DNA of 34,479 bases from assembly GCA_900313115.1 (NCBI GenBank), contig OMPX01000224.1, forward strand, positions 1-34,479, written 5' to 3'. Positions within the stretch are counted from its first letter, which is position 1, and each line of letters starts with the position of its first letter. The translations under genes were made by a program, and so were the position numbers. This document shows positions 4,451 to 22,260 of this stretch, piece by piece. The stretch comes from an uncultured bacterium. Its GTDB lineage: Bacteria; Cyanobacteriota; Vampirovibrionia; Gastranaerophilales; Gastranaerophilaceae. A model generated the notes under the pieces. It was not told the origin of the DNA. It did not search any database and was given only the letters and a program-made list of their open reading frames with translations.

Positions 4451-5194
4451 CTATAATATTTTCATACCATCTTCATCAAATATGGCAAATTTGTTTTGAA
4501 ATAACACTCTGAAGATATGTTTTCCGTTGACTTGTTCGATATCAATATTATCAAACATAAAATCGAGAATTACATTTCCGTTAAAATCAATAACACCCCA
4601 TTTGCCGTCTTTTAATGCATTCATAAATTTGTCAGAAGATATTGCACCTAAAAATTCATATTCAAACGGGATTATAGTTTTAAAATTACTGTCAATCACA
4701 CCGTTTATGTTGTTTCTTGTCACAATTGCATATTGTGAACATAGGCATATCTCATCAAAGTTTAACTCTGCGTGGATATTTTTATTTTTATCCATAATAA
4801 AATATGTCAAATGGGTTTCGCCTGATATTTCTTTCTCTAATGTGATTATAAAATTTTCGCCCCATTCCTGTACAGGATTGGAATATTTGAAATCGACTAC
4901 AACGTTTCCGTTTTTATCTAATAATCCCCACTTACCGTTTAGTCGCATTCTGCAATATTTTTTATTATCATTCCACCAAAATATCCAACCTCTGTCATAA
5001 CCTATGTCATAAGGAAATTCGTCAGATAAATCGTCATATATAAAATCTGTTATTTGGTTGCCTTTGTAATCAATAATCCCCGATTTACCGTTTAAAATAG
5101 CAACAGTGTATTCCCTTCCGTCAAATTGAAGTATTCTGTCGAATTTGAAGTTTAAATCATTTAATTTAATAACATCATTCTGTAATTTTGCCAT
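4451..5194 (-). CDS. WG-repeat protein (short)
   Basis: A 247-aa protein with at least four units of the WG repeat type: a G-K-W/S-G-hydrophobic-D stretch, then xxGNxxxDF and an aromatic-D end (for example GKWGLLDKNGNVVVDF and GKWGVIDFNGNVILDF). No signal peptide or membrane segment is visible. WG repeats probably form a beta-rich binding scaffold; no catalytic role is known for them. The ATG at 5194 is preceded by AAAAAGGATAAAATT, a reasonable ribosome-binding site, and by shared-promoter site A. Convergent with the nuclease gene and divergent from the glycosylase gene, with which it shares a two-promoter intergenic region. Related proteins lie at 16224-17471 and at the C-terminus of the 19149-21296 product. 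Confidence 0.85.
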   Translation of the reverse strand: MAKLQNDVIKLNDLNFKFDRILQFDGREYTVAILNGKSGIIDYKGNQITDFIYDDLSDEFPYDIGYDRGWIFWWNDNKKYCRMRLNGKWGLLDKNGNVVVDFKYSNPVQEWGENFIITLEKEISGETHLTYFIMDKNKNIHAELNFDEICLCSQYAIVTRNNINGVIDSNFKTIIPFEYEFLGAISSDKFMNALKDGKWGVIDFNGNVILDFMFDNIDIEQVNGKHIFRVLFQNKFAIFDEDGMKIL

Positions 5195-5215: not shown

Positions 5216-5247
5216 ATTATAAAAAACTAATATGTCATATATGGTCG
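5216..5247 (-). promoter_or_regulatory. Shared-family promoter, site A (WG-repeat gene)
   Basis: On the minus strand: CGACCA, 20 bases containing TGACA at the fixed position, then TATAAT. The expected transcript start is near 5209, leaving a 15-base leader with the ribosome-binding site. Divergent from site B, 44 bases away. Confidence 0.85.
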
Positions 5248-5291: not shown

Positions 5292-5323
5292 CGACCAAAT
5301 CTGACGGGGGTAAATAGTATGAT
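5292..5323 (+). promoter_or_regulatory. Shared-family promoter, site B (glycosylase gene)
   Basis: CGACCA, AATCTGACGGGGGTAAATAG, TATGAT. The element takes the place of a normal -35 box; no TTGACA lies at 17-base spacing. The transcript would start near 5330, leaving AAGGAG almost at the 5' end. Confidence 0.85.
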
Positions 5324-5342: not shown

Positions 5343-5939
5343 ATGGAAAATAAATTAGTACATTGTAAAGGTTTTGACCCTGAACTCAACATAAATTCAA
5401 AAGTTCTTATACTTGGAACACTACCTCCAATAGAAAGAGATTGGTACTATAAGAACGATTGGATGTTTTGGCGGATAATAAGAAAATCAGTTAATACTGA
5501 TTATAATCTTACACAAAGTTCTCCAATTGATCTAAAAAAACAAATTTTATTAGAAAATAAAATTGCATTATGGGATATTATCAATTCTGCTGATAGAGTA
5601 AATGGTTCAAGAAAAGACAAGGATATTAAAAATAGAATACCTAATGATATAAAACAAGAATTAGAAAAAAGAAAATCTAATATATCTGCAATAATAATTA
5701 ATGGATACAATAAAAAAGATAAAAACTCTGCATTCAAATGGTTTAAGGAATTTAATAATGATGTTAGTGATAAACCAATTATTGATAAGGAAATATCAGA
5801 AGAATCATTTTATTTTGAATGGAACAATATAAAAGTATATCCATTACGTGCAACAAGTGCAATTAATCAACTTAAGAATTCAACCCCTATAGACTATGAA
5901 GATTTATGGATTAAAACAATAAAGAAATATATAAAATAA
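5343..5939 (+). CDS. Uracil-DNA glycosylase superfamily protein (HDG/family 6-like)
   Basis: A 198-aa predicted DNA base-excision enzyme. Motif 1 is VLILGTLPP (21-29), followed by YYKNDWMFWRII (35-46), which aligns with the YYG-x-P-x-N-x-FW stretch of hypoxanthine/uracil glycosylases. LWDII is at 76-80, IIINGYNKK at 117-125, and YPLRATSAIN aligns with the LPSTSPAN motif near the C-terminus. The usual asparagine of the YYGxPRN stretch is replaced, so the substrate may differ from uracil or hypoxanthine. The ATG follows AAGGAGAGAATT. First gene of a plus-strand run under site B. Glycosylases of this superfamily are known to defend against phages with modified bases, which fits the setting; that role is inference. 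Confidence 0.78.
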   Translation: MENKLVHCKGFDPELNINSKVLILGTLPPIERDWYYKNDWMFWRIIRKSVNTDYNLTQSSPIDLKKQILLENKIALWDIINSADRVNGSRKDKDIKNRIPNDIKQELEKRKSNISAIIINGYNKKDKNSAFKWFKEFNNDVSDKPIIDKEISEESFYFEWNNIKVYPLRATSAINQLKNSTPIDYEDLWIKTIKKYIK

Positions 5940-6207: not shown

Positions 6208-6239
6208 CGACCTGATATGTCATAGTAACTTTATATAAT
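6208..6239 (+). promoter_or_regulatory. Shared-family promoter, site C (PIF1-like helicase gene)
   Basis: CGACCT, GATATGTCATAGTAACTTTA, TATAAT. One of two sites with TGTC in place of TGAC. It starts 22 bases after the stop of the 76-aa gene. Confidence 0.85.
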
Positions 6240-6267: not shown

Positions 6268-7770
6268 GTGAAACAGGCAGAAATAGAAAAGAATATTATA
6301 TCCTGCGTAAAAGATATTGGGAAGGTTAAAAAACTAAAACTTGCCAATATCTTATGCGGTAATGAAGATTGTATGGGAACAAAGTTTTGTGGCATTTATA
6401 AAAAAATGCCGTTATCCGATGTTTTGTACTACATTGATGAACTTGTCAGGAAATCTTTTTTGAACTCACAAGGTCTGTTTGAAATTCTCAGCGTAAATAT
6501 TCTGAAATGTGAAAAACCTGATGAATCACTACCTATAAAAACAGACGATATTACTGATAAGAATTTGTTAAAAATAATCCGTCTTATAAAAAAGGGCAAA
6601 AATATATTTATAACAGGTCATGCAGGCACAGGCAAAAGTTATATTTTAGACAAACTAAAAACAATTGTCCCAAAACTGACCGTAACAAGTACAACAGGTA
6701 TTGCAGCAGTAAATATGAACGGTCAGACCATACACTCTTGGGCAGGGGTAGGGATTTGCAATAAACCAGTATCAAGTGTTGTTGAAAAGATTTTGGATAA
6801 CCATACTCAGTATACCCAAATCAAAAACTGTGAAATTCTTGCACTTGATGAGGTTTCTATGCTGAATTTTCAGACCTTTGAATATATAAACGAAGTTTTG
6901 AAACAAGTCAGAGAAAATGATGAGCCGTTCGGTGGGATTCAACTGATATTTATCGGTGATTTCTTTCAATTGCCACCTGTCGAAAAAAGAATGGAACAGG
7001 AAAAGAAATACTGTTTTGAATCTGATTTGTGGAAAGAATTAGACTTTCACTCTGTAATACTCAACCAAAATTACAGGCAAAACGAAAAAGATTTAATAAA
7101 AGCACTATCACATATAAGAACAAATAATCTGACCCAAAAAGATATAGAACTTCTGAAAACAAGAGAAGTAAAAGATAGTAAATACTTATCCGATATGCTC
7201 CATATTTTTTCTACAAATGAAGAAGTCAGACAGTATAATCAGCAACGGTTTAATTTGTTAGACTCGGTTCGATATGATTTTGAATCAATAGATACCCTGT
7301 ACCAAAATACAAATATTTTGAATTATTGCAAAGTAGAGGAAAAGATTTCCCTAAAAGTCGGCTCAAGAGTTATGCTGCTAGTTAATCTTAATTTTGAAAC
7401 AGGACTTATCAACGGTTCTTGTGGCACCGTAATTGAGATTAATAATGATGATATTTTGATACGGTTTGATAACGGAATAAATGAACATATCCAAAGATAC
7501 GAGTTTGAGTTCTATAAGAATGATAAACTCATTGCAACCAGAAAACAATTTCCGTTGAGTCTTGCGTATGCTATTACTACTCACAAATCGCAAGGGATGA
7601 CACTGGACAGACTCTTTGTTGATTTTTCACGATTTTTTGAGAACGGGCAAACCTATGTTGCTCTCAGCAGAGTAAAAACATTAGAAGGGTTGCATATATC
7701 AAACTTTAATCCGCAGAAAATAAAGGTTGATAAAAAGATTGTAGATTTCTATAAGAGTCTAAAAGCATAA
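6268..7770 (+). CDS. PIF1/RecD-like superfamily 1 helicase with N-terminal RQC-like domain
   Basis: A 500-aa predicted 5'-3' DNA helicase. Walker A GHAGTGKS (117-124), Walker B LDEVSM (D194, E195), GDFFQLPPV at 230-238 (the PIF1 motif III signature), YAITTHKSQGMTLD from 434 and YVALSRVKTLEGL from 463 are all intact. The first 70 residues include CGNEDCMGTKFCGIYK and resemble the winged-helix RQC region of RecQ helicases; this is common in small bacterial PIF1 proteins but is only a resemblance here. The start is a GTG with GGAGAGA nine bases upstream. It has its own shared-family promoter (C). Its role in the island could be unwinding DNA for the nucleases or glycosylase nearby. Confidence 0.9.
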   Translation: MKQAEIEKNIISCVKDIGKVKKLKLANILCGNEDCMGTKFCGIYKKMPLSDVLYYIDELVRKSFLNSQGLFEILSVNILKCEKPDESLPIKTDDITDKNLLKIIRLIKKGKNIFITGHAGTGKSYILDKLKTIVPKLTVTSTTGIAAVNMNGQTIHSWAGVGICNKPVSSVVEKILDNHTQYTQIKNCEILALDEVSMLNFQTFEYINEVLKQVRENDEPFGGIQLIFIGDFFQLPPVEKRMEQEKKYCFESDLWKELDFHSVILNQNYRQNEKDLIKALSHIRTNNLTQKDIELLKTREVKDSKYLSDMLHIFSTNEEVRQYNQQRFNLLDSVRYDFESIDTLYQNTNILNYCKVEEKISLKVGSRVMLLVNLNFETGLINGSCGTVIEINNDDILIRFDNGINEHIQRYEFEFYKNDKLIATRKQFPLSLAYAITTHKSQGMTLDRLFVDFSRFFENGQTYVALSRVKTLEGLHISNFNPQKIKVDKKIVDFYKSLKA

Positions 7771-7817
7771 ATTAAATAATATTGATAATAACCAAAAAAT
7801 TTGATAAAATTTTTATA

Positions 7818-7849
7818 CGACCTTATCTGTCGGATAAAAATTGTATAAT
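7818..7849 (+). promoter_or_regulatory. Shared-family promoter, site D (WYL regulator gene)
   Basis: CGACCT, TATCTGTCGGATAAAAATTG, TATAAT. The -10 box ends six bases before the ATG at 7856, so the mRNA would begin at or next to the start codon. A site of this family in front of the regulator implies autoregulation. Confidence 0.87.
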
Positions 7850-7855
7850 AGGAGT

Positions 7856-8830
7856 ATGGAAATGGACGATAAACCAAGATATTCAAGAGTCAGCGATATA
7901 ATAGAACTAATAACACTAATGCAATCAAAGGTGTTGGGGATTACTCTGACCGACATACAAAACGAGTTCAGTGTTTCACGCAGAACTGCTGAAAGGTTGC
8001 GTGATACTATGCTAAATGTTATGCCGCAGATTAACGAGATTGAAACCTCTGGCAAAGAAAAACATTGGGGATTTATCTCAGGTTATATGAACGAAATTAT
8101 TTCGTTTACTCCCGATGAAATTGCTATTCTTGAATCAGTAAAAGATGGGTTGCCGTTTGACGATAAAAAGAAATCGGTTGATAAAGTCATTACCAAACTG
8201 AAAGCACTATCGAGAAAACAATTGGCAAAAATAGATGATGCAATAGAGATTATCCTGAAATCAGAAGGTGTTGCCGTTTCTCAAAAGCCAAGTTATAAGG
8301 TTGATGTGGATGTTTTAGATATAATAAGACGCGGGATAAAAGAGAATCTGAGAATAAAATGCAAATATGATAACAAAGATAAAATACTTTCTCCTTACGG
8401 AATTATTTATGGTGCCAATGTTTATCTGATAGGTGTTGAAGGGGAACACGCAAATCCTTATGTATATCGTATGCATAAGGTTAAAAATGCCGAACTTACA
8501 AAAGATACTTTTGATAAAGGGGATTTTGATATTAAAGAATATGCTAATCATTCCTTTGGGGTTTATCAGAATGAAACTATAAAAGTTGAACTCTTATTCA
8601 ACCCTGACGTTGCAGAAGATGTTTTGAACTATAATTTCCACCCGACACAAAAAGTAAAACAGAATGATGACGGAAGTGTAACCGTAAAATTCAAGGCATC
8701 AGGTGAACTTGAAATCCTGTGGCACTTGTTCCGCTGGGGAGATACCGTTCAGATTGTTTCACCAAAAAGTCTTAAAAAACAGTATATTGAAATGCTGAAA
8801 GGTGTTCTAACTAAACAGGAAAAGAAATAA
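7856..8830 (+). CDS. HTH-WYL domain transcriptional regulator, candidate controller of the island
   Basis: A 324-aa DNA-binding regulator. A winged helix-turn-helix occupies about residues 28-58, with recognition helix SRRTAERLRD (41-50). A WYL domain lies at about 146-225 (SPYGIIYGANVYLIG at 179-193, PYVYRMHKVKNAEL at 201-214), and a WCX-type C-terminal domain at about 242-320 (RWGDTVQIVSP at 293-303). WYL domains sense nucleic acids or nucleotides; relatives include PafB/PafC and the defence regulators BrxR and CapW. The ATG at 7856 sits at the predicted transcript start; the ATG at 7862 has AGGAG seven bases upstream but that sequence would not be in the mRNA. The shared promoter in front and the WYL-less paralogue at 11969-12307 make it the likely regulator of the ten-site promoter family; that link is inference. 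Confidence 0.9.
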   Translation: MEMDDKPRYSRVSDIIELITLMQSKVLGITLTDIQNEFSVSRRTAERLRDTMLNVMPQINEIETSGKEKHWGFISGYMNEIISFTPDEIAILESVKDGLPFDDKKKSVDKVITKLKALSRKQLAKIDDAIEIILKSEGVAVSQKPSYKVDVDVLDIIRRGIKENLRIKCKYDNKDKILSPYGIIYGANVYLIGVEGEHANPYVYRMHKVKNAELTKDTFDKGDFDIKEYANHSFGVYQNETIKVELLFNPDVAEDVLNYNFHPTQKVKQNDDGSVTVKFKASGELEILWHLFRWGDTVQIVSPKSLKKQYIEMLKGVLTKQEKK

Positions 8831-9083: not shown

Positions 9084-9120
9084 ATTTACCCCAACCCGAC
9101 CATATCTGACAGGGGTAAAT
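9084..9120. repeat. 9-bp inverted repeat bracketing promoter E
   Basis: ATTTACCCC (9084-9092) and GGGGTAAAT (9112-9120) are exact inverted copies flanking the CGACC and TGAC halves of site E. It could be a second operator or a weak hairpin at the end of the preceding transcript; there is no clean T-run after it. Confidence 0.7.
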
Positions 9121-9128
9121 AATATAAT
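9097..9128 (+). promoter_or_regulatory. Shared-family promoter, site E (82-aa gene)
   Basis: CGACCA, TATCTGACAGGGGTAAATAA, TATAAT. Nearly identical to site B through the TGAC half and the GGGGTAAAT that follows. The transcript would begin near 9135, directly at AAAGGAGG. Confidence 0.88.
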
Positions 9129-9149: not shown

Positions 9150-9398
9150 ATGGAAAGAACAAAAAGTATTGTACACAACGAAGTCAGATTATTTGGGATA
9201 AAAATATTTAGTTCTGATTATACAGTTACGGAAGTAAATGAAACCGATGAATATGAAGAAGTACCTGTACCGCAACTACCGTCTTGGCGTGATGTAATTA
9301 ATGATTCGAAATCAAGACGCAGGGAACGGATAATATTTTTAGAAAAACTCTTTAATCAGGACAATGACAAAAACAATCTTGATGACGAATTATCTTAA
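9150..9398 (+). CDS. Small hypothetical protein, 82 aa
   Basis: A strong ribosome-binding site (AAAGGAGGTAATACT before ATG) and shared-family promoter E support a real gene. The product begins with a possible beta hairpin (NEVRLFGIKIFSSDYTVTEV), then an acidic linker with a proline cluster (EEVPVPQLPSW), then a basic helix (SRRRERIIFLEKLF). I do not recognise the family. It lies 109 bases upstream of the large nuclease gene and could encode its partner or inhibitor; only position supports this. Confidence 0.7.
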   Translation: MERTKSIVHNEVRLFGIKIFSSDYTVTEVNETDEYEEVPVPQLPSWRDVINDSKSRRRERIIFLEKLFNQDNDKNNLDDELS

Positions 9399-9430: not shown

Positions 9431-9507
9431 CAAAGAAATAATAATAAAGAACTTTCAGAAAGTTCTAAAAAAATATTTTGGAATTAAGTGATTAAAGGAA
9501 TAGGTTA

Positions 9508-11670
9508 ATGGCAACACAACGATCAAATGAAGCAAGTGAAAATGATACTATTTTAATAAACATAATGTATACGGGAGATTATACAAATAAGAATATCGGA
9601 CATGAAATAATAAATTTGTATAAAACGGATAATGGTGAGAATTATATTTATATTTCACCCTATGGGACACTTGCAAAAGAGAAATATAAAAGGGTAGATT
9701 CCGTATTATTAGCAAGACCTGCAGAGAAAGGGCGATTACAAATTATTGCAAAAGCAATAGGTTTAACCCCACAAAATAAGAGTGGAGATGAAGAAGAATT
9801 AAAATTTAATGAAAAAGAAAAAATCAATCAAATTCTAAAAGAAAAGAATTTATTAGGGTTGACTTCTACACAGATTAAACAAAAATTATATTATGATTGG
9901 ATTATAAAAAAAGAAAAGGATAATGGTATAAAAACAATAACAGATAAATTTATAATGAGCAGAAAAATTGTTACCATAGAGGAAATGAAAAACATTCAGT
10001 GTGCTTTTGTATTAAAACAATTGTCAAATGATAAAAATGAAGAATTTAAGGCGATAAAAAACAAGTCTGTAAAATGGAATTCACCAAAAGTAACACAACT
10101 GAAAGAAAAATTTATCCAAAAATATGAAACTAGTAATGTTGAAAATATAGTAGAAAAATTAGAAAAAAAATGTGAAAACAATGAAGATGATTTTATCAAA
10201 GAAGTTAAAAAACTTTCTAAATATGCAGAAGAGGAATATGACGAAACACAATTGAATAGCGATTTTGAAAAAACAAAATTCAGAAAAGATTGGAAAAGGA
10301 TTACTCCAATGCACGCCCCTCAAATAGATGATATTAAAACCAATGGAATTATATATGGCAATATTCCTATCAATGAAATATTAGATGTAAATTATCACCG
10401 TGTTCCACCTGTATATTTAACTTTTAAAGCAAAAAACGTTGTGCGTCCAAATAAGCATATTTATATTGAATACTTATCATCTAAAAAAGAAGATAATAAG
10501 CCTGATAATAATGAAAATCAAACGGAAAAAACAGGTGAATTAAGTAAAAAAGAAAAAGAAAATGCAAAATTTATTGATATAGATTCTAAGGGAAATTCCA
10601 TAACATATAAGTTTCAAGATATAAAGTTTCGAAACCAAAAATGTATGACATATGTTTCTAAAACAGAGAAATATAATTCTATAGCTAAAGAAATAGAAAA
10701 ATTAAAAAATCAAAAAGGTGAGGACATTGTATATGCAGTATTACAAAATATCATAAATAATTCTGATTATTGGGTTAATGAAAATACCAACAATAATGAC
10801 AAAGAAAAATTAAAAATAAAATCTGTGAATATTGACGAAAAATCTGATTATGAACCATTTTTCTTGGATATAACAGGTAATCAATATGATGAATTGTCCT
10901 ATTCAAATATGTTTGCTTATTTCTTTAAGAAATATCCTGAATTATTTGAAGAATTTGCAAAAGAGAAATTATCTCAAAAAGATAATACCCTTGAAAATTT
11001 TAAAATAGGTAAATTTTTTGAAATTACTCGTGAAGAAAATAATATTGATATTTTAATTGAAACAGAGAATGATATTTTTGTTATAGAAAACAAAGTAAAA
11101 TCTCATATTAACGGTGAAAAATATATTGGTACTGTAGATGCTCAAGAGAATGAGAATTCTGATAATGAAGAGAAGAAAGATAAAAGTATTGAATATACAA
11201 ATCAACTTATAAAATATTATAATTACGTTGAAAGTAAATACCCAGATAAAAATAGACACTATTTCATTTTCAAACCTGATTATAATAATACTAAAGCAGA
11301 ATTAGATGCAAAAATAAATGAAGTAAAAGCAAGTGAAGATATAGAGAAAACAATAAATAAGTATCACCATATAAATTATTCTGATATACACAAATTTTAT
11401 GAAAAAAAACCAGATAAATGGTTAGAAGAAAAAATTCAAGCAAAAATGAAAAAAGATGAGAGAGACAGAATAACAGAAGATAAAAAAAACATATGTGATT
11501 ATATAAAAAATAATGATAAAATGCTAATGGAATATGTTTATTTTAAAGATTTTGTCAAAGCATTAAAGAGACACATTAATTCAACAGATAACACAAATGA
11601 ATTACTAATGGAGTATAAATTCAGGCAAGCAATAAAAGATGCTATAAAAAGAAAAGAAAACAAAAAATAA
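9508..11670 (+). CDS. Large PD-(D/E)XK nuclease, PDDEXK_4-like C-terminal domain
   Basis: A 720-aa predicted nuclease. The catalytic core is at about residues 488-600: NIDILIE with D514, FVIENKV with E527 and K529, and a downstream NQLIKYYNYVESKYP helix, matching the D, E-x-K, Q-L-x-x-Y pattern of the PDDEXK_4 family. The N-terminal 70 residues (MYTGDYTNKNIGHEIINLY, PYGTLAKEKY) form a separate compact domain I do not recognise; the middle (about 300-480) contains a PVYLTFKAKNV segment that may be beta-rich. Start ATG follows AAAGGAATAGGTTA. It is driven by its own extended -10 promoter and may also receive read-through from site E. Modular nucleases like this usually sense something with one domain and cut with the other; the trigger is unknown. 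Confidence 0.72.
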   Translation: MATQRSNEASENDTILINIMYTGDYTNKNIGHEIINLYKTDNGENYIYISPYGTLAKEKYKRVDSVLLARPAEKGRLQIIAKAIGLTPQNKSGDEEELKFNEKEKINQILKEKNLLGLTSTQIKQKLYYDWIIKKEKDNGIKTITDKFIMSRKIVTIEEMKNIQCAFVLKQLSNDKNEEFKAIKNKSVKWNSPKVTQLKEKFIQKYETSNVENIVEKLEKKCENNEDDFIKEVKKLSKYAEEEYDETQLNSDFEKTKFRKDWKRITPMHAPQIDDIKTNGIIYGNIPINEILDVNYHRVPPVYLTFKAKNVVRPNKHIYIEYLSSKKEDNKPDNNENQTEKTGELSKKEKENAKFIDIDSKGNSITYKFQDIKFRNQKCMTYVSKTEKYNSIAKEIEKLKNQKGEDIVYAVLQNIINNSDYWVNENTNNNDKEKLKIKSVNIDEKSDYEPFFLDITGNQYDELSYSNMFAYFFKKYPELFEEFAKEKLSQKDNTLENFKIGKFFEITREENNIDILIETENDIFVIENKVKSHINGEKYIGTVDAQENENSDNEEKKDKSIEYTNQLIKYYNYVESKYPDKNRHYFIFKPDYNNTKAELDAKINEVKASEDIEKTINKYHHINYSDIHKFYEKKPDKWLEEKIQAKMKKDERDRITEDKKNICDYIKNNDKMLMEYVYFKDFVKALKRHINSTDNTNELLMEYKFRQAIKDAIKRKENKK

Positions 11671-11675
11671 TCCCA

Positions 11676-11707
11676 CGACCTAATCTGACGGGGTGGCATG
11701 ATAAGAT
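11676..11707 (+). promoter_or_regulatory. Shared-family promoter, site F (short structured RNA)
   Basis: CGACCT, AATCTGACGGGGTGGCATGA, TAAGAT. It begins six bases after the nuclease stop codon and points into a region without a credible reading frame that ends in a strong terminator. Confidence 0.83.
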
Positions 11708-11713
11708 AAAATT

Positions 11714-11850
11714 ACAGGCGGGTGTTTCGCCCAGCCACGAAGAATAACAGACGGGATACAGATTTTGATTTCTTGTATTCACTTCGTTCAACAAGCAATC
11801 AAAATCGCTTATCTCTACTCCAAAAAACCGACCACACAGGTCGGTTTTTT
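11714..11850 (+). ncRNA. Candidate structured small RNA F, about 137 nt
   Basis: The start is set seven bases after the -10 of site F and the end at the terminator. The RNA has a small 5' hairpin (GGCG-GGTGTTT-CGCC). A long hairpin follows in which GATTTTGATT (11761-11770) pairs with AATCAAAATC (11797-11806) and CTTG (11772-11775) with CAAG (11792-11795) across a single mismatch, closing a 16-nt loop. A 12-bp terminator hairpin ends it. No reading frame here has a usable start signal. It matches no family I can name. As it shares the regulon promoter, it is probably induced with the neighbouring defence genes; it may act as a base-pairing regulator or as a component of an effector. Confidence 0.65.
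11822..11850 (+). terminator. Strong intrinsic terminator, probably bidirectional
   Basis: AAAAAACCGACC, loop ACACA, GGTCGGTTTTTT: a 12-bp perfect stem with a T-run on either strand. It ends RNA F and can also end the minus-strand recombinase operon. Confidence 0.93.
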
Positions 11851-11968
11851 GGTGTCAAACTATCTCAAATCTCGGTTACAATACTTCCCAATAACCACCT
11901 TTATTAGTACCTAACCATAATTAAACCATAACATATTTTTAGGATAATATTCATGATTTTACATTTAA

Positions 11969-12307
11969 TTATTTTTTCTTTCTGAGTGCTTTCATTTTTA
12001 TAATTATTGAATTTACTTTCGGTATATGCAGATTTTGCATTACCTCTATTTCTTCATCAGTGAACTCAACTATCTCTTTCATTGAATAGTTGATAAACCC
12101 CCACCGTTTAATCTTATTTTCTTCACATATTACATCTACCTGTGAAAATCCATTAAGGACGGCATCCCTCATTCTTTCAGCAGTTCTTCTTGATACTCCA
12201 AATTCAGCACAAATATCATCGAGGCTGATACCTTTTGGTTCTGCCATCATCATGTGCAATAATTGCATAAAATCTGTCATTCTGGAATATCTTATTGTTT
12301 CGCTCAT
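11969..12307 (-). CDS. WYL-less paralogue of the HTH regulator (112 aa)
   Basis: Aligns with the first 120 or so residues of the WYL regulator at 7856-8830: same YSR start region, same HTH (SRRTAERMRD against SRRTAERLRD), same RWGFI and F-T-x-E-E-I segments, then stops at KMKALRKKK where the full protein continues into its linker and WYL domain. It is an intact frame with AAAGGTGAAACA before the ATG, so it looks like a maintained short form rather than a decaying copy. The second gene of an operon with the recombinase (start 12 bases after that gene's stop). With the recognition helix kept and the sensor missing, it could compete for the same promoters or control the recombinase operon. This is inference. 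Confidence 0.82.
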   Translation of the reverse strand: MSETIRYSRMTDFMQLLHMMMAEPKGISLDDICAEFGVSRRTAERMRDAVLNGFSQVDVICEENKIKRWGFINYSMKEIVEFTDEEIEVMQNLHIPKVNSIIIKMKALRKKK

Positions 12308-12318
12308 TGTTTCACCTT

Positions 12319-12954
12319 TTATAAATTCAAACTATTGAACGCATTATCAACATTCTCTTGGGTTAGACCAATATATCTCATTGTTACTGCAACGGAGGAA
12401 TGGTTAAGTGCGTGCATTACAAGAGTTATATCTTTCGTACTCTGATAGAGCCAGAAACCACAGGTCTTTCTTAATACGTGGGTAGAAAAATGTATATTAG
12501 AATATAACCCCTCAACAACCTCTTTCAGTTTTCTGTATGCTTGTGACTGGTCTATATATTTCACATTTCTCAACCCGTCTTTTCTGTTGCTGAAAAACAG
12601 ATAATCGTCATCTTTCAGGTTGTATTCTTTAATATAGTTTTTCAGTACCGCCATTAAAGCATCATTTATCGGGAACTGTTTGCTCTTACCTGTCTTTGTT
12701 TCTTTGGTGTGGACATACCCGCTTTCAACGTCAGATACTCTCAATTTCAGAACGTCTGATATTCTCAATGCAGTATTTATACCTGAACAGAATAGAACAT
12801 AATACTTTCTTGTCTTTTTTGTGTTGAGTACCGTTTTAATTCCTTCTATGACGGATCGATCCTTAATAGGTTCAGCGGCAGTTGCAGTATTTATTTCTGA
12901 TTCTTTTCCTGTGTTTTTATCCACTCTTATAAATGTACTTTTTTTCTTGACCAT
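12319..12954 (-). CDS. Tyrosine recombinase, catalytic domain with a minimal N-terminus
   Basis: A 211-aa XerC/D-type site-specific recombinase. All catalytic residues are visible: R64 (ALRISDVL), a lysine in the TKTGKSK hairpin (about 87-90), H159-x-x-R162 (THVLRKT), H185 (LNHSS) and nucleophile Y194 (MRYIG). The normal core-binding domain of about 100 residues is nearly absent, so it is much shorter than phage integrases and resembles compact plasmid or invertase-like recombinases. I chose the ATG at 12954, which has AGAGG six bases upstream, over the ATG at 12990. It lies between the two convergent arrays of regulated genes, and the sequence upstream of it carries several inverted repeats that could be its substrates. 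Confidence 0.9.
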   Translation of the reverse strand: MVKKKSTFIRVDKNTGKESEINTATAAEPIKDRSVIEGIKTVLNTKKTRKYYVLFCSGINTALRISDVLKLRVSDVESGYVHTKETKTGKSKQFPINDALMAVLKNYIKEYNLKDDDYLFFSNRKDGLRNVKYIDQSQAYRKLKEVVEGLYSNIHFSTHVLRKTCGFWLYQSTKDITLVMHALNHSSVAVTMRYIGLTQENVDNAFNSLNL

Positions 12955-13248
12955 GATTACCTCTTTTTTGGCTTTATTCTTCAGTCTCAATATAACGCGC
13001 TTTTGTCGAATTACAACCTCAATACTATGAGTTTTTTACATTTCGACGCAATCTCATTATGACTAAAATGGCATCAAAGTCAGACGGGATAACTGATTAA
13101 CCCATTTTAGCAAAACTCATTAAAATTAAAAAAGAATGAGTTTTTGGATAAAAGCATATTTTATAAGAATTAGTTTGTTAAATTTTTTTCAACGAAAAAT
13201 AATACCAAATCAACATTTTTTACAAGCATTTTGTTTGTAATTAAATTC
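12955..13248. other. Non-coding region upstream of the recombinase with several inverted repeats
   Basis: No gene is seen here. It holds a possible minus-strand promoter for the recombinase (TTGTAA at 13016-13011, 16 bases, TATATT at 12994-12989), inverted copies of GTCGAA (13005-13010 and 13042-13047), CTAAAATGG/CCATTTTAG (13063-13071 and 13102-13110) and AAAACTCATT/AATGAGTTTT (13112-13121 and 13135-13144). ATGAGTTTTT also occurs at 13027. Such a cluster next to a tyrosine recombinase may be an attachment or arm-site region; alternatively the last hairpin is a weak terminator. Confidence 0.5.
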
Positions 13249-13581: not shown

Positions 13582-13613
13582 ATCTTAACATGTGTGCCCG
13601 TCAAATCAGGTCG
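13582..13613 (-). promoter_or_regulatory. Shared-family promoter, site G (large structured RNA)
   Basis: Minus strand: CGACCT, GATTTGACGGGCACACATGT, TAAGAT. It begins eight bases beyond the stop of the preceding operon. Confidence 0.83.
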
Positions 13614-14568: not shown

Positions 14569-14763
14569 TCACTTTCTGTATGCCTTTGGATTATCAGGTT
14601 CATAACTCAACCAATCACATATTTCATAAGAATCGTTATGTTTCTTGTATTCGTTATTGTTCCCGATATCAATATTTTGTCGTCTTAACTGTCTGTTATA
14701 GACTTTTTTCATTGATTTATTTGTTGCAAGTTGTAAGTATGGCTTTTTTCTGCTTCTGCTCAT
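14569..14763 (-). CDS. Small basic protein, SRSRKKPY family-like (64 aa)
   Basis: Begins MSRSRKKPYLQLATNKSMKK, with a very basic first half and a more acidic C-terminus containing WLSYEPDNP. Short proteins that open with S-R-S-R/Y-K-K are common in bacteria as small hypothetical, probably nucleic-acid-binding, proteins. The ATG at 14763 has GGGAGA 11 bases upstream overlapping the end of the 461-aa gene, and its stop lies four bases before the next start, so translation is likely coupled. The frame extends further upstream but that would overlap the neighbour for no reason. Confidence 0.7.
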   Translation of the reverse strand: MSRSRKKPYLQLATNKSMKKVYNRQLRRQNIDIGNNNEYKKHNDSYEICDWLSYEPDNPKAYRK

Positions 14764-14770
14764 AATTATA

Positions 14771-16156
14771 TTAAATCTCCCTGATATAGTTATGATAAAC
14801 GTAAGACGGAATTTCACTAAACTGTGTATAATCACAGTGGTCCGTTGTGAGTTCAAGCACATATCCGTTCTCAAATATGAACCATATCTGCTCAAACATA
14901 TCATCACTGTCTTTGCGGTCTATTCCTAAATGACTAAAGTTCATAAAATAAACTTTATCCGTTTTATGAACTTTAATATCAACAAGTTTTTGTCCGATAA
15001 TATTTATACTAAAATGTTTGCTGATATCTGCACCGTATTTTTCTAAATCAATAGAATTCATATTTACATTGACCAAACTACCTGTCCAATATCCTATCTC
15101 TAATCTTTCCCCCTCAAAATCTAATATAACAGGGGAATCCAAACTCATTGATACATCTCTTTCTTTCCATTGATAGAACGGCGGTGGGTTTGTAGTCCAT
15201 TCCCCATCTTTGTACTCATAATCGCCCATATCCCAATCTTTAAAATACAAAGTACCTGTATAGAAAATTCTGTCTATAGTTTTACCCATAATTTTAGGTT
15301 TTATGGAATTAAAATATTCTTCCAACGGCTTTGTATGAATTATTCTTGTAGATTCCCAATCTTTGTCTATCTGACAATAAGGAGAAACTACTGATAAAGT
15401 CCTGATTAATTCTAATGTGTCAGAAGAATATTTAAGCCCTGTCCAATGCATTAGAATAGCCAGTTTATTTATCTCTATCCATTCTTTTAGTTCAACCAGT
15501 TCACATTCTTTTTCAAAGATTAATTCTGTATTACCAATAACAGTACCGTCTAACCTTAATCTTACCCAATTCATATTGTGTTTATCTGCATAATCGTTCT
15601 GAACAATAATATACGGCAATTCATTTGAGCCCTTCGGTTGCAGGACGAGTTCTACATTCATAACAAGTCCCGTCTCTTTTTTGCTCAAAGGTGTGTTCGT
15701 CCACCTCTGTTCCTGATTTGGTGTTTCATAGAGATAAAACTTTTCTCTGTCGTTGAGTTTTTCCCACAAAATGAGAGCATAATCATAATATGGAATTTCT
15801 TCATTTTCATAAGTCAGAGTATCTTTGATTATTGCCTTTTTAATCTCTTTTCTGTATACGGGTTTCAAATCTTTCATTTTGTTAGGGCTGGTTTTACAAG
15901 TGGTTAATCTCATATAATTTGGCTGATGTCTTAAAGAAAGTTTTATCTGCATTATAACTTGCAGACCAGAAGTTATATCCTCAAAATAATTTTCAAACAT
16001 AAAATATGCACTAATCGGTCTGGCACCTACATTAAAATACCATTCGCTATCTTCATCGTTTTGGGTAACAAAATAAATAAAGTTTTTACTTTTAGTTATT
16101 ATTTTGAAGTTCTTATTTTCTACCATACTTTCCCGCAATATATTGTTATTTTTCAT
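14771..16156 (-). CDS. Modular hypothetical protein with FEG/IGQKL domain (461 aa)
   Basis: First gene under promoter H, with AAAGGAATAAAA before the ATG. The C-terminal part, from about residue 277, contains YFNSIKPKIMGKTIDRIF, then VILDFEGERLEI, IIGQKLVDI and FENGYVLELTTDHCDY. The same ordered elements occur in the N-terminal half of the 17717-19147 product (YINSIKKDLIGKTLDKIL, VVLQFEGNNLEI, IIGQKLIKI, FENGYGCTIYTDTCGDY), so this is a transferable domain of about 190 residues. The N-terminal half is rich in aromatic beta-like segments and is not recognised. No catalytic motif is visible. Might be an immunity-type or binding protein; no firm assignment. Confidence 0.75.
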   Translation of the reverse strand: MKNNNILRESMVENKNFKIITKSKNFIYFVTQNDEDSEWYFNVGARPISAYFMFENYFEDITSGLQVIMQIKLSLRHQPNYMRLTTCKTSPNKMKDLKPVYRKEIKKAIIKDTLTYENEEIPYYDYALILWEKLNDREKFYLYETPNQEQRWTNTPLSKKETGLVMNVELVLQPKGSNELPYIIVQNDYADKHNMNWVRLRLDGTVIGNTELIFEKECELVELKEWIEINKLAILMHWTGLKYSSDTLELIRTLSVVSPYCQIDKDWESTRIIHTKPLEEYFNSIKPKIMGKTIDRIFYTGTLYFKDWDMGDYEYKDGEWTTNPPPFYQWKERDVSMSLDSPVILDFEGERLEIGYWTGSLVNVNMNSIDLEKYGADISKHFSINIIGQKLVDIKVHKTDKVYFMNFSHLGIDRKDSDDMFEQIWFIFENGYVLELTTDHCDYTQFSEIPSYVYHNYIREI

Positions 16157-16182
16157 TTTTATTCCTTTTATAAAGTTCTTTT

Positions 16183-16214
16183 ATTATAAATTACATGTAT
16201 GTCAGTTTTGGACA
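16183..16214 (-). promoter_or_regulatory. Shared-family promoter, site H (461-aa gene operon)
   Basis: Minus strand: TGTCCA, AAACTGACATACATGTAATT, TATAAT. The first hexamer departs from CGACC but the TGACA half and the 20-base spacing are kept. It begins ten bases after the stop of the WG gene, with no terminator between. Confidence 0.78.
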
Positions 16215-16223
16215 TATATATTG

Positions 16224-17471
16224 TTAGATTTTTATTTCTACAATTTCACCTTTATTATTTATATAGGCATTTTCTGTTTCTTTTGACCAAATAGGAGTTA
16301 ATCCGTCATTAAAACCAAAAGAACTAAGATAATATTTTCCGAAAGGTACTATAACATCACCTTTTTTGTTGATATACCCTTCATTTCCGTTTAAATCGGT
16401 TGCTAATAATAATCCGTCGCTGCAATCTCGTATATTTTTATAAATACAAGGTATAATCAGATTTCCGCTTAAATCTATCACTCCTGCTTTATTGTCCTTG
16501 AACATAACGGCAACATCTTCTGAATATACATTATAGTTGGTATTGTCATATATAGCAGGTGCAACAACTTCTCCATAAGTATCTATACAGCCAACTTTTT
16601 TATCCTTTCTGATCATAAATCTGCCACAGGATAAGTGTCCAATTTGGTTATATATAAAATCGGTTAAAAACTTGTTCTCCACTGCCGAATACAATGCCCT
16701 TTTCCCATCTTTTTCGACACTCATACTGATAAACTGCCCTATATTATTATCTTCATCGGATATTGCTTCCATATATTCATATTTGAAATCTTCTATAATA
16801 TTGTTATCCCTGTCAATAAGCCCCCATTTATTATCTTTTAGTGAGGGAAAAACAAGACAATCTCTTGTGCAATATGAATCGATTTCATCATAGAGGAAAT
16901 CGACAACTACTTCGTTATTTTTATTTATTAATCCCCATTTGCCATTCTTTTTAGCGTTAATAAGCCCGTTTTTACAAATAAAAATATCTTCATACTCAAA
17001 CGGTATGACGGTATTATTGAAATAATCAACCATTCCCCATTTGCCTTTTAGACATTCAGCGGCAACACCTTCTGAAAAATAATGTCCGTTTTCATACATA
17101 CAGGGAATAACCTCTTTTCCTTTAATATCAAGATGTCCATGTTTACCGTTTCGTTTTGCCTCAAACAGCCCTTCCTCACTCCCGCCATAAATAGTGTCAT
17201 ATATAAAATCTGTAAGAAACTCACCTTTATTATTAATCACGGCGTACTTACCTCTATCATTTACCCCTTTACCCCCACCCATAACGAAGGCAACATCTTC
17301 TGCTTCAAACTCATTGACTATCATATCTCTGTCTGGGAGTTCAAACAGTTTCTCACCTTTATTATTTATACAAATACGAGGACCGTAAGTAAATTTATTA
17401 CATTTACCCCTTCCGTCAAAATGTATAAATGCTTTTCCGTTTACAAAATGACCTAAATCATAGCCTTTCAT
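16224..17471 (-). CDS. WG-repeat protein (415 aa)
   Basis: Nearly the whole length is made of about ten WG-type repeats, each with a W/Y/A-G-hydrophobic-D/N core, a xxxGxxV turn and an aromatic end (KWGLINKNNEVVVDFLYDE, KVGCIDTYGEVVAPAIYDN, KAGVIDLSGNLIIPCIYKN). No signal peptide, so probably cytoplasmic. Such repeats are thought to build a binding surface. The ATG follows AAAGGAGCAACA. Last gene of the operon from promoter I, starting ten bases after the small IWD-motif gene. Related to the WG proteins at 4451-5194 and 19149-21296. Confidence 0.88.
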   Translation of the reverse strand: MKGYDLGHFVNGKAFIHFDGRGKCNKFTYGPRICINNKGEKLFELPDRDMIVNEFEAEDVAFVMGGGKGVNDRGKYAVINNKGEFLTDFIYDTIYGGSEEGLFEAKRNGKHGHLDIKGKEVIPCMYENGHYFSEGVAAECLKGKWGMVDYFNNTVIPFEYEDIFICKNGLINAKKNGKWGLINKNNEVVVDFLYDEIDSYCTRDCLVFPSLKDNKWGLIDRDNNIIEDFKYEYMEAISDEDNNIGQFISMSVEKDGKRALYSAVENKFLTDFIYNQIGHLSCGRFMIRKDKKVGCIDTYGEVVAPAIYDNTNYNVYSEDVAVMFKDNKAGVIDLSGNLIIPCIYKNIRDCSDGLLLATDLNGNEGYINKKGDVIVPFGKYYLSSFGFNDGLTPIWSKETENAYINNKGEIVEIKI

Positions 17472-17481
17472 TGTTGCTCCT

Positions 17482-17730
17482 TTATAACCATTTTGCTTTA
17501 AGTTGATTTATATCTTTCCCACTACATAAACTTATAGCCCATAAAGTTATTTCATTTTTATTAGTAACACCACTTTCAATAACTTCTATCATTTTTTGTT
17601 GTTGTTCATCTGTTTCACAATGTTCCATTATACCAAAAATAAATTCTTCATTATCCCAAATGTTTTTCAATAAAGAGTAGAGTTTTTTATTCGTGTCTGT
17701 TTTTAGATAGACATCCTTATTTATTGTCAT
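17482..17730 (-). CDS. Small IWD-motif protein, paralogue 3 (82 aa)
   Basis: Shares LKNIWDNEEF, ETDEQQQKM, SGVTNKNEI and the alanine-glycine end with the proteins at 8846-9067 and 13621-13851. It overlaps the end of the 476-aa gene by 14 bases and has AAAAGGAGTTAAAAA before the ATG, so it is co-translated with it. The C-terminal NQLKAKWL extension is unique to this copy. Confidence 0.72.
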   Translation of the reverse strand: MTINKDVYLKTDTNKKLYSLLKNIWDNEEFIFGIMEHCETDEQQQKMIEVIESGVTNKNEITLWAISLCSGKDINQLKAKWL

Positions 17731-19147
17731 TTTTTAACTCCTTTTTTATTCTTTTGTTTACCTCATATTGTATTTTTTGGGCTTTATTAAATCCTTTTTT
17801 AAACTGTTTTATAAAACTGTCTTTTTCAGTTGTATAATCAAAAATATATCTTGCTCCACACAAATAATCCCCCCTTATAACAATACGGAGTTGGTTATTT
17901 TCTTTAGGATAAGCAAATAAAATATCTTGCTGTATTTGAAAATCTTTTATTATTGCAGGAAGATTATTTTCAATATTTTTTATAAATTTTTTAGCAGCAT
18001 AACGAAGTCGGGAACCGTGATCAATATTTGGTTTTATACTTTTTTCATTTACTTCAAGTTTTAACTGACAATACACGTCATAATCTGCATTATCTTGGCT
18101 GATGCAGTTTTCAAAATAAGATTCTATCCCCTTTAAATCAATATCAAAACTTACTTTTATATCCGCCTTTTTTGATTCTGTTTTCGGCTCGGGAACAATT
18201 TCGTCTTTATAATAAAATTTATCGGTATCTTTTATATAAATCCAATCGTTATACCCGCTTTCAAAATAGTTTAATATATCAAGGGCTATATCAGATATAC
18301 TCCACTTTTTCTTTTTTATCATTTTGGGGTCATAATCTATTGTAATTGGATTTTTCCAGAATTTGTATTTATCTTTATAATATTGGGATATAAATTTATT
18401 ATTAGTTTTATCTCCTTGTAAAATTTCCATTACCCAATCTGAATTTGCATCATTTTTATATGCACATAATCTGTATGGTATTCTTTTATATATTTCTGGG
18501 GTAATAACAGCAAATTCTGTGCCATAATCTCCACAAGTATCTGTATAAATTGTGCAGCCATAACCGTTTTCAAATTGAAATTCTATATTATTACATCGGT
18601 TTTCTGTCACGATTTTTATAAGTTTTTGTCCGATAATTTCCTTAAAACGAACACTATGATTAACCCCACAAAATCGTTTTTCTATTTTATCTGTCTCTTT
18701 TATTGTGTTATAACCTAATCTGACATAATTAGGACCATCAAAGCATCTTCCAGCATTTTCACTAACATCAATTTCTAAATTATTACCCTCAAATTGCAAT
18801 ACAACAGGTGGATTCGCTATATTTTTACAATACTCCCAATAAGATCCTTTATAATCTTTTGTTTTTGCTGAATATGATTGCCATATCCCATCACTAATAA
18901 TATAAATATAGTCGTTTAAGTAATTTAAAAACAATATTTTATCAAGAGTTTTTCCTATCAAATCTTTCTTTATTGAGTTGATATATTTCCTCAAATCTTT
19001 TAACCGCCTGAACTCTGTATAGTTCCAAAGTTCTTGTTTGAACTTGTATTTAGGATAAAAACTCTCATCAGTAATTTCTATACAAGAGAATAAAATATCT
19101 CCTGCTTTTTTATAAGATTCAACTTCTTTTTGTGATCTTGTTGTCAT
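17717..19147 (-). CDS. Modular hypothetical protein combining two shared domains (476 aa)
   Basis: I chose the ATG at 19147 (MTTRSQKEV), one base after the stop of the 715-aa gene, with AGGTG upstream supplied by the junction repeat; the frame extends to 19189 but would overlap. The N-terminal half carries the INSIKK-GKTLDKI, FEGNNLEI, IIGQKL, FENGYG domain found also in the 461-aa protein. The C-terminal half (from AYKNDANSDW, through WIYIKDTDKFYYKDEIVP to YIFDYTTEKDSFIKQF) aligns with the middle of the 19149-21296 product (AYKDLDNTW, WIYSKDTEKWYSSNEVMP, LIYSFTADKNKFVSCF). It is thus a chimera of modules used by its neighbours. Function unknown. Confidence 0.78.
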   Translation of the reverse strand: MTTRSQKEVESYKKAGDILFSCIEITDESFYPKYKFKQELWNYTEFRRLKDLRKYINSIKKDLIGKTLDKILFLNYLNDYIYIISDGIWQSYSAKTKDYKGSYWEYCKNIANPPVVLQFEGNNLEIDVSENAGRCFDGPNYVRLGYNTIKETDKIEKRFCGVNHSVRFKEIIGQKLIKIVTENRCNNIEFQFENGYGCTIYTDTCGDYGTEFAVITPEIYKRIPYRLCAYKNDANSDWVMEILQGDKTNNKFISQYYKDKYKFWKNPITIDYDPKMIKKKKWSISDIALDILNYFESGYNDWIYIKDTDKFYYKDEIVPEPKTESKKADIKVSFDIDLKGIESYFENCISQDNADYDVYCQLKLEVNEKSIKPNIDHGSRLRYAAKKFIKNIENNLPAIIKDFQIQQDILFAYPKENNQLRIVIRGDYLCGARYIFDYTTEKDSFIKQFKKGFNKAQKIQYEVNKRIKKELKNDNK

Positions 19148-19148
19148 A

Positions 19149-21296: not shown

Positions 21297-21299
21297 AAT

Positions 21300-21393
21300 C
21301 ACCTGAGAGCATTTAGAGTCTGCTTCAGACTTAACATCTTTTATCTTCGTATCAATTTACTTTTTTATTGACATAACCCCATTGTTCAATGTA
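21300..21393 (-). pseudogene. Remnant of a WG-gene 3' end (junction repeat, copy 2)
   Basis: Reads IEQWGYVNKK like the end of the 715-aa protein, then a five-base deletion shifts the frame and gives an immediate stop. The DNA of the SEADSKCSQ tail is still intact and runs into the ribosome-binding site (CTCAGGTG) of the 715-aa gene. It lies directly after the FtsZ-like gene, so a WG-type gene was probably lost here by recombination, leaving its last hundred bases as the spacer. Confidence 0.85.
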
Positions 21394-22228: not shown

Positions 22229-22260
22229 ATATTAACATTTACTTCTGTCAGATTTGGTCG
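22229..22260 (-). promoter_or_regulatory. Shared-family promoter, site I (FtsZ-like operon)
   Basis: Minus strand: CGACCA, AATCTGACAGAAGTAAATGT, TAATAT. It controls the operon running from 22184 to 16224. Just upstream lie two tandem GGGGTAAATG copies (near 22292-22317) that may also bind a factor. Confidence 0.82.

Follow-up and report, generated by a model that had tools for sequence, protein, structure and literature searches.

DriD of Caulobacter is an activator that switches genes on when single-stranded DNA (ssDNA) appears. It binds ATACGAC-N7-GTCGTAT through two DNA-binding domains that flank the -35 region at a fixed distance from the -10 element, in promoters with poor -35 boxes, and it does not regulate its own gene; the preprint describes this mechanism as distinct from the sigma adaptation of PafBC (PMC12340889). 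PafBC, the mycobacterial WYL/WCX activator (PDB 7P5X, 9FND), is a heterodimer that recognises a single half-site, makes contact with sigma domain 4 and binds DNA only when polymerase is present; it works with a '-26 motif' (PMC11804915). SiwR of Mycobacterium smegmatis, a homodimeric WYL activator of a genotoxic-stress response, has a 19-bp imperfect palindromic operator between the -35 and -10 elements, and residues R204 and R207 of its WYL domain are needed for ssDNA binding and activation (PMC10693628). BrxR and CapW are WYL regulators in defence islands as well, acting as repressors on other operators, and defence-island WYL repressors that use inverted-repeat sites have been described (PMC9122601; PMC9122588).

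The window considered in this study is the whole stretch of 34,479 nucleotides that was analysed, corresponding to contig C3 of a 2.05-Mb assembly (226 contigs, about 94% complete). Sequence comparisons covered 117 genomes of the family, from which 72 regions upstream of WYL homologues were taken. The features of the window are collected in Table 1.

Table 1. Positions of the WYL regulator, operator-bearing promoters and associated features in the window.
Feature	Coordinates	Strand	Basis
Operator-promoter of WG-repeat gene 4451-5194	5216..5247	-	pattern
Operator-promoter of DNA-deoxyinosine-glycosylase-like gene 5343-5939	5292..5323	+	pattern
Operator-promoter of Pif1/Dda-type helicase 6268-7770	6208..6239	+	pattern
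Predicted promoter P1 of WYL gene, extended -10 TTTGATAAAAT	7800..7810	+	spacing, relatives' promoters
Promoter P2 of WYL gene: DriD-type operator (CGAC-N7-GTCG) and -10 TATAAT	7818..7849	+	pattern, alignment
WYL regulator (wHTH, three-helix linker, WYL, WCX)	7856..8830	+	domain, profile and fold searches
Operator-promoter of 82-aa gene 9150-9398	9097..9128	+	pattern
Operator-promoter of non-coding RNA	11676..11707	+	pattern
Structured RNA ending in terminator-like hairpin	11708..11853	+	folding z=-7.8, relatives
112-aa paralogue of regulator, wHTH/linker part alone, no WYL domain	11969..12307	-	sequence
Operator-promoter, no ORF downstream	13582..13613	-	pattern; predicted second RNA
Relaxed operator-promoter (TGTC-N7-GACA) of 461-aa gene 14771-16156	16183..16214	-	relaxed pattern
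FtsZ-like protein, 257 aa	21411..22184	-	FtsZ C-terminal domain 1.2e-19
Operator-promoter of FtsZ-like fragment gene	22229..22260	-	pattern

The WYL gene encodes a single wHTH-WYL-WCX unit of 324 aa, with the ATG at 7862 (MDDKPRYSR) as its likely start, as in homologues, and the in-frame ATG at 7856 also possible. Domain searches matched WCX (5.9e-14) and WYL (1.4e-5), and a profile search of the PDB aligned the protein with DriD (8tp8) at E=5.4e-59 over positions 5-314 of a 319-position profile and thus over its full length, whereas PafC (E=0.026) and PafB (E=0.5) aligned with the WYL part alone and BrxR/CapW were absent among the matches up to E=10. The AlphaFold monomer model was only moderate (pLDDT 69, pTM 0.40); global TM-scores are therefore low, and the Foldseek comparison was read by rank and E-value only: DriD came first (5e-25, 28-29% identity), with PafBC at 1.7e-12 (12% identity) and BrxR/CapW at rank 16 and lower (E about 1e-8, 10-13% identity). 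Compared with the DriD structures (PDB 8TP8, 9PFQ, 9PFV), the window protein showed full-length similarity at 28-32% identity with the same domain order, and the recognition-helix segment RRTAERxRD is common to both. The sequence similarity to PafBC was weak, and BrxR/CapW were distant in sequence. No second full wHTH-WYL-WCX unit, fused or adjacent, and no PafB/PafC gene pair was found at the locus. The named relatives of the regulator are mostly rumen or gut MAGs, several of them labelled Candidatus Gastranaerophilales or Cyanobacteria, so that the host most likely belongs to this order.

The promoter next to this gene reads CGACC TTATC TGTCG GATAAAAATTG TATAAT and ends 12 bp before the ATG at 7862. 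An earlier, sequence-only reading had proposed that TGWCR lies exactly 11 bases before TATAAT, that an upstream CGACC sits at the -35 position, that the element recurs across the island and that the HTH-WYL gene carries it at its own promoter; the letters agree on each point, with CGACC at about -38 to -34. The recurrence is far beyond chance: CGACCNNATNTGWC gave 8 matches in the window, none in the reversed sequence and a mean of 0.01 (maximum 1) over 200 dinucleotide shuffles, and TAnnAT falls exactly 12 bases past TGWC in all eight of these strict copies (0 in shuffles). Across the 2.05-Mb genome, CGACC-N2-AT-N-TGWC has 10 exact matches (reversed control 0), and the window, which makes up 1.7% of the assembly, contains eight of them (binomial p about 3e-13); the remaining two flank a WYL paralogue on contig C7.

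Variants of the pattern were counted as well. The TGWCR-N11-TATAAT arrangement of the sequence-only reading occurs 6 times in the window (shuffle mean 0.22), and wherever TGWC-N12-TAnnAT occurs there it is accompanied by a second half-site, whereas the bare PafBC-style TGTCR-N11-TANNNT occurs 3 times against a shuffle mean of 3.27, which is chance level. With both half-sites included, YGWC-Nk-GWCR-N11-TANNAT gave 10 matches for k=7 (reversed 0, shuffles 0.03), one of them being the 22260 site in mirror reading and another a new site at 16214, and 0 for k=3-6 and 8-12. The significant feature is the pair of half-sites and not the single TGTC element. In the eight strict copies, the -10 agrees with TATAAT at 4-6 of 6 positions, but the hexamer located 17 bases ahead of it agrees with TTGACA at only 0-1 of 6, as expected for activator-dependent promoters.

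This geometry is that of DriD. The didA, CCNA_03891 and bapE promoters (methods of PMC12340889) align with the window element in their half-sites, in the N7 spacer, in the placement over the -35 and in the distance to the -10, and placing the -10 at the window's spacing also brings the conserved G-14 of that study into register. Therefore, the element is a DriD-type operator, of which TGWCR is the downstream half-site. PafBC and the window have in common a WYL/WCX protein, an activator in PafBC and very likely one here, and a TGTC about 26 bases upstream of the start, and the sequence-only reading had named PafBC as the model; on the profile and fold searches, the two-half-site operator and the distance to the -10, DriD takes its place. 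PafBC membership was itself rejected on the profile search, the fold search and the chance-level count of TGTCR-N11-TANNNT. As a mechanism, sigma adaptation in which one wHTH would read the -26 TGWC, the other would contact sigma domain 4 and CGACC would be secondary is very improbable: the two half-sites are equally constant, with a fixed N7 between them, the downstream element alone is at chance, and PafBC is a heterodimer that the product of this single gene matches in the WYL part alone, even though TGTC-N12-TAnnnT equals the PafBC consensus given in the sequence-only reading and PafBC also uses a -26 motif (PMC11804915).

As a whole, the observations are best explained, at a probability of roughly 0.7, by a homodimeric DriD-type activator that would drive its own gene and a regulon in response to a nucleic-acid trigger. 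That the WYL protein is an activator-type regulator, as had been claimed before, is supported and very likely; the single gene and the two half-sites suggest a homodimer. Two wHTH domains would bind CGAC and G(T/A)C(G/A), half-sites with a seven-base gap between them that flank the non-consensus -35, and the bound dimer would hold the housekeeping RNA polymerase on the good -10 located 12 bases past the second half-site. The trigger would probably be a nucleic acid arising from DNA damage or infection and read by the WYL domain, this being ssDNA for DriD. The Arg pair of SiwR reads R..K in the window protein, and most close relatives lack the first Arg of the pair; since this ligand-site pair is only partly kept, unlike in DriD, the ligand may differ and the trigger may not be ssDNA. 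Further differences from DriD are the operator at the gene's own promoter together with a second promoter P1, the clustering of many sites in a mobile-looking island, the frequent GAC in place of GTC in the second half-site and the near-consensus -10. The proposed autoregulation thus differs from what is reported for DriD (PMC12340889). The proposed regulator would resemble SiwR as a homodimeric WYL activator responding to genotoxic stress, whereas SiwR controls one neighbouring operon and no island of sites is described in the available text (PMC10693628).

The operator is conserved among relatives. In ten close relatives, the element or a variant of it lies upstream of the WYL gene, with some copies imperfect, such as those of L044 (6-base spacer) and of L052 and L051 (altered upstream half-site). 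Upstream of the 72 homologues, [CT]G[AT]C-Nk-G[AGT]C[AG] was found with k=7 in 39 regions (reversed control 1), against 0-3 for the other spacings, and TAnnnT was commonest 12 bases past the second half-site (24 counts); about half of the 72 were without a clear N7 site. A PWM trained without WYL promoters scored above the 99th percentile of shuffles in 20 of the 72 WYL upstream regions and in 1 of 72 reversed ones. A looser pattern gave 38 matches in other genomes, compared to about 21 for the reversed control; 15 of the 38 have a WYL homologue no more than 8 kb away, against an expected fraction of 0.5%. Paenibacillus relatives (25-26% identity) had no such operator. Additionally, a second operator class was seen upstream of five WYL homologues (L142, L144, L145, L151, L174), consisting of palindromic YGAC-N7-GTCA with TATAAT at 9 and not 12 bases; promoters of this class are perhaps repressed rather than activated.

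In another reading, the gene at 7856 would be a passenger and the sites would belong to one of its paralogues, be it that of C7, that of C33 or the 112-aa version with the wHTH alone. The genome holds at least three WYL-type paralogues plus the short wHTH-only version, and the C7 sites include CGACA variants; however, close orthologues in relatives carry the site directly upstream, and a 72% identical WYL gene in one relative is flanked by two sites, so that such an assignment is decidedly improbable. Cross-talk between the paralogues is possible, and those on C7 and C33 could share or compete for sites.

At the WYL gene itself, a second promoter was predicted. The extended -10 of P1 sits 7 bases upstream of the operator, and the start site of P1 would therefore fall at the operator edge. 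When 29 WYL promoters were compared, TAnn(A/T)T boxes were concentrated at positions ending 5-7 bases before the operator, with 18 counts, and the TTTGnTAnnAT arrangement was also seen in WYL promoters of close relatives and in none of the ten non-WYL operator sites listed. This suggests a switch from basal to activated transcription: by its overlap with the P1 start, the operator should let dimer binding swap basal P1 for activated P2 transcription. Judged from the spacing, the P2 start would fall almost at the ATG, and the dimer would block P1 and raise P2.

Repression, too, could act through a site over the -35. It is nonetheless unlikely that, in the manner of BrxR/CapW, a dimer over the -35 would silence the island until nucleic acid releases it on infection, because promoters with 0-1 of 6 positions matching at 17 bp would need help to be strong, DriD-activated promoters have the same fixed N12 to the -10, and BrxR/CapW stand far behind DriD in the fold search. 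Compatible with such a repressor are the overlap of the operator with the -35, the homologue subgroup whose palindrome has its -10 at offset 9, and the inverted repeats of WYL repressors in defence islands (PMC9122601; PMC9122588); repression may be a local effect at P1 of the WYL gene.

Under the preferred reading, a DriD-type activator, the regulator would drive its own gene and at least eight other window transcripts. Nine promoters with the operator lie between about 4.5 and 22.3 kb. Among the predicted targets, the glycosylase-like gene matches TIGR04274 at E=1.6e-18 (67.3 bits, below the cut-off of 80), and the 82-aa gene belongs to a small family that is common to L046 and L053. The operator-promoter at 9097 probably also serves the 720-aa gene at 9508-11670, which has a weak NERD nuclease match (E=0.003). 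From the operator at 13582, about 330 nt lead to a terminator-like hairpin at 13276-13249, and the non-coding stretch 13582-13236 (minus strand) folds with z=-3.7. Control of the whole island, as the sequence-only reading had it, is too broad: it would apply to these nine promoters and would not extend to the type III R-M genes (29.9-34.4 kb) or to 26.2-27.5 kb, where no operator was found; the AAA_14/DUF4143 gene is likewise not covered. For the PvuRts1I-like enzyme and the UvrD/PD-(D/E)XK protein at the left end, no operator lies within the window, and the promoter of their operon is beyond the contig end.

Outside the window, the regulator would also drive an operon of a DnaB-like helicase and an RT as well as a gene for an AAA ATPase; both lie behind operators on contig C7, where the WYL paralogue carries a one-mismatch copy of the operator at its own start. 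The genes found behind operators in relatives are those for WYL proteins, DnaB-like helicases, AAA ATPases, UvrD-type helicases and the small family, whose members there span 59-82 aa. The WYL gene is followed directly in L047 and L053 by an AAA_5 (McrB-type) gene and a McrBC-family gene (McrC-type, 8e-56 and 9e-63), and in L045 by a UvrD/PD-(D/E)XK protein, an AAA ATPase, a DnaB-like helicase and an RT. The earlier description of the locus as a defence island is only partly right: it fits the McrBC and retron-type RT genes near the regulator in relatives, whereas the window's own predicted targets look more like repair, replication and division control.

The 257-aa FtsZ-like protein matched the FtsZ C-terminal domain and did not match the tubulin/FtsZ GTPase model. 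FtsZ-family fragments also lie behind operators in two relatives, at L052 4012-4578 (minus strand; Tubulin 5.7e-23, after a short ORF) and at L092 828-1388 (plus strand; 2.7e-10). The fragments behind operators consist of either the C-terminal part alone or the GTPase domain alone, and they are possible candidates for division inhibitors. DidA, the first target of Caulobacter DriD, blocks division; the parallel with the FtsZ-like fragments is suggestive only. More broadly, both regulons contain DNA-processing genes together with a cell-division gene.

The structured RNA of the window, the transcript predicted from the 11676 operator, belongs to a family of 120-145 nt with a short 5' hairpin and a long variable hairpin, and kinship was judged by sequence, structure and promoter. 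Copies were found at 11708-11853 in the window, at about 9017-9158 in L044, and in L045, L046, L047, L053, L191-L196 and L198-L200. In the 5' hairpin, compensatory changes occur at four pairs, with all but one cell of the alignment paired; this covariation was counted in a hand alignment. RNAalifold gave only 11 base pairs for the covariance model. That model recovered 12 strong copies, one of which (G108) was outside the training set and lies about 4 kb from a WYL homologue. In Rfam, the RNAs were without a match at gathering score, and weak E-value matches were judged to be chance.

Eleven RT loci were found in the 117 genomes. A DnaB-like gene stands directly before the RT in 11 of 11, and in nine of them the structured RNA lies on the opposite strand just past the RT 3' end, i.e., tail-to-tail. 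The RTs match retron RT models (PADLOC RT_II-A 7e-50 and others). In the window's own genome, the RNA is on C3 and the RT on C7, so that the window copy has no adjacent RT, and a search for a non-coding RNA beside the C7 RT found none. Retrons likewise pair a retron-type RT with a conserved structured RNA; unlike in retrons, the RNA here is convergent with the RT and not upstream of it, a DnaB-like helicase gene always precedes the RT, and the promoters carry the DriD-type operator. The set of RNA, RT and helicase looks like an undescribed retron-like type.

The 112-aa paralogue adjoins a tyrosine recombinase (integrase) gene at 12319-12990, and a 74% identical copy was found behind an integrase in L047 (1453-1788, plus strand). 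Degradation of a full WYL gene was considered as the origin of this ORF and dropped, because the 74% identical copy and the bias of the substitutions between the two toward third codon positions favour an intact short protein; by these comparisons, the paralogue appears to be under purifying selection. As its WYL domain is absent, it could sit on operators while sensing nothing, which would make it a candidate competitor for the operator and possibly a brake.

With both protein and site matching DriD, the system has the look of a switch that responds to damage or infection and serves a mobile island. Its output would comprise proteins for repair and replication together with the structured RNA of a retron-like module, and also an FtsZ-like fragment, which may stall division. 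A more far-reaching version, speculative and of low probability, would make the DriD-type switch part of a new defence module of retron-like type, with a DnaB-like helicase, an RT and a convergent RNA and often also an AAA ATPase or McrBC; the ligand that holds or flips the switch would be ssDNA made by the RT or freed on phage attack, and the integrase-linked wHTH-only copy would be its brake. A search of the window's own genome (assembly about 94% complete) for a LexA DNA-binding domain found none, which would leave room for a different damage response. Absence of LexA as a family-wide rule was rejected, as 20 of 60 family genomes had at least a weak match, five of them above the cut-off. 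A search of the open-access literature found no DriD-type regulon outside Caulobacter. The DriD-type regulators of Gastranaerophilales, having the same operator geometry, offer natural variation for testing site choice by WYL proteins and placement of the polymerase. Through the regulon, repair helicases, McrBC, FtsZ-like fragments and a retron-type RT with its RNA would be tied to a sensor of the ssDNA type, so that the question of what turns these systems on becomes directly testable.

Two further arrangements were observed. In L017 (contig C7), at 9447-12584, the WYL paralogue is divergent from a two-domain AAA ATPase gene, the intergenic region between them holding one operator for each, and this ATPase matches IetA/TRIP13 defence models in one relative. 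Within the window, the minus-strand block at 14600-21300 encodes mostly unannotated proteins with WG repeats and is part of an island that looks mobile.
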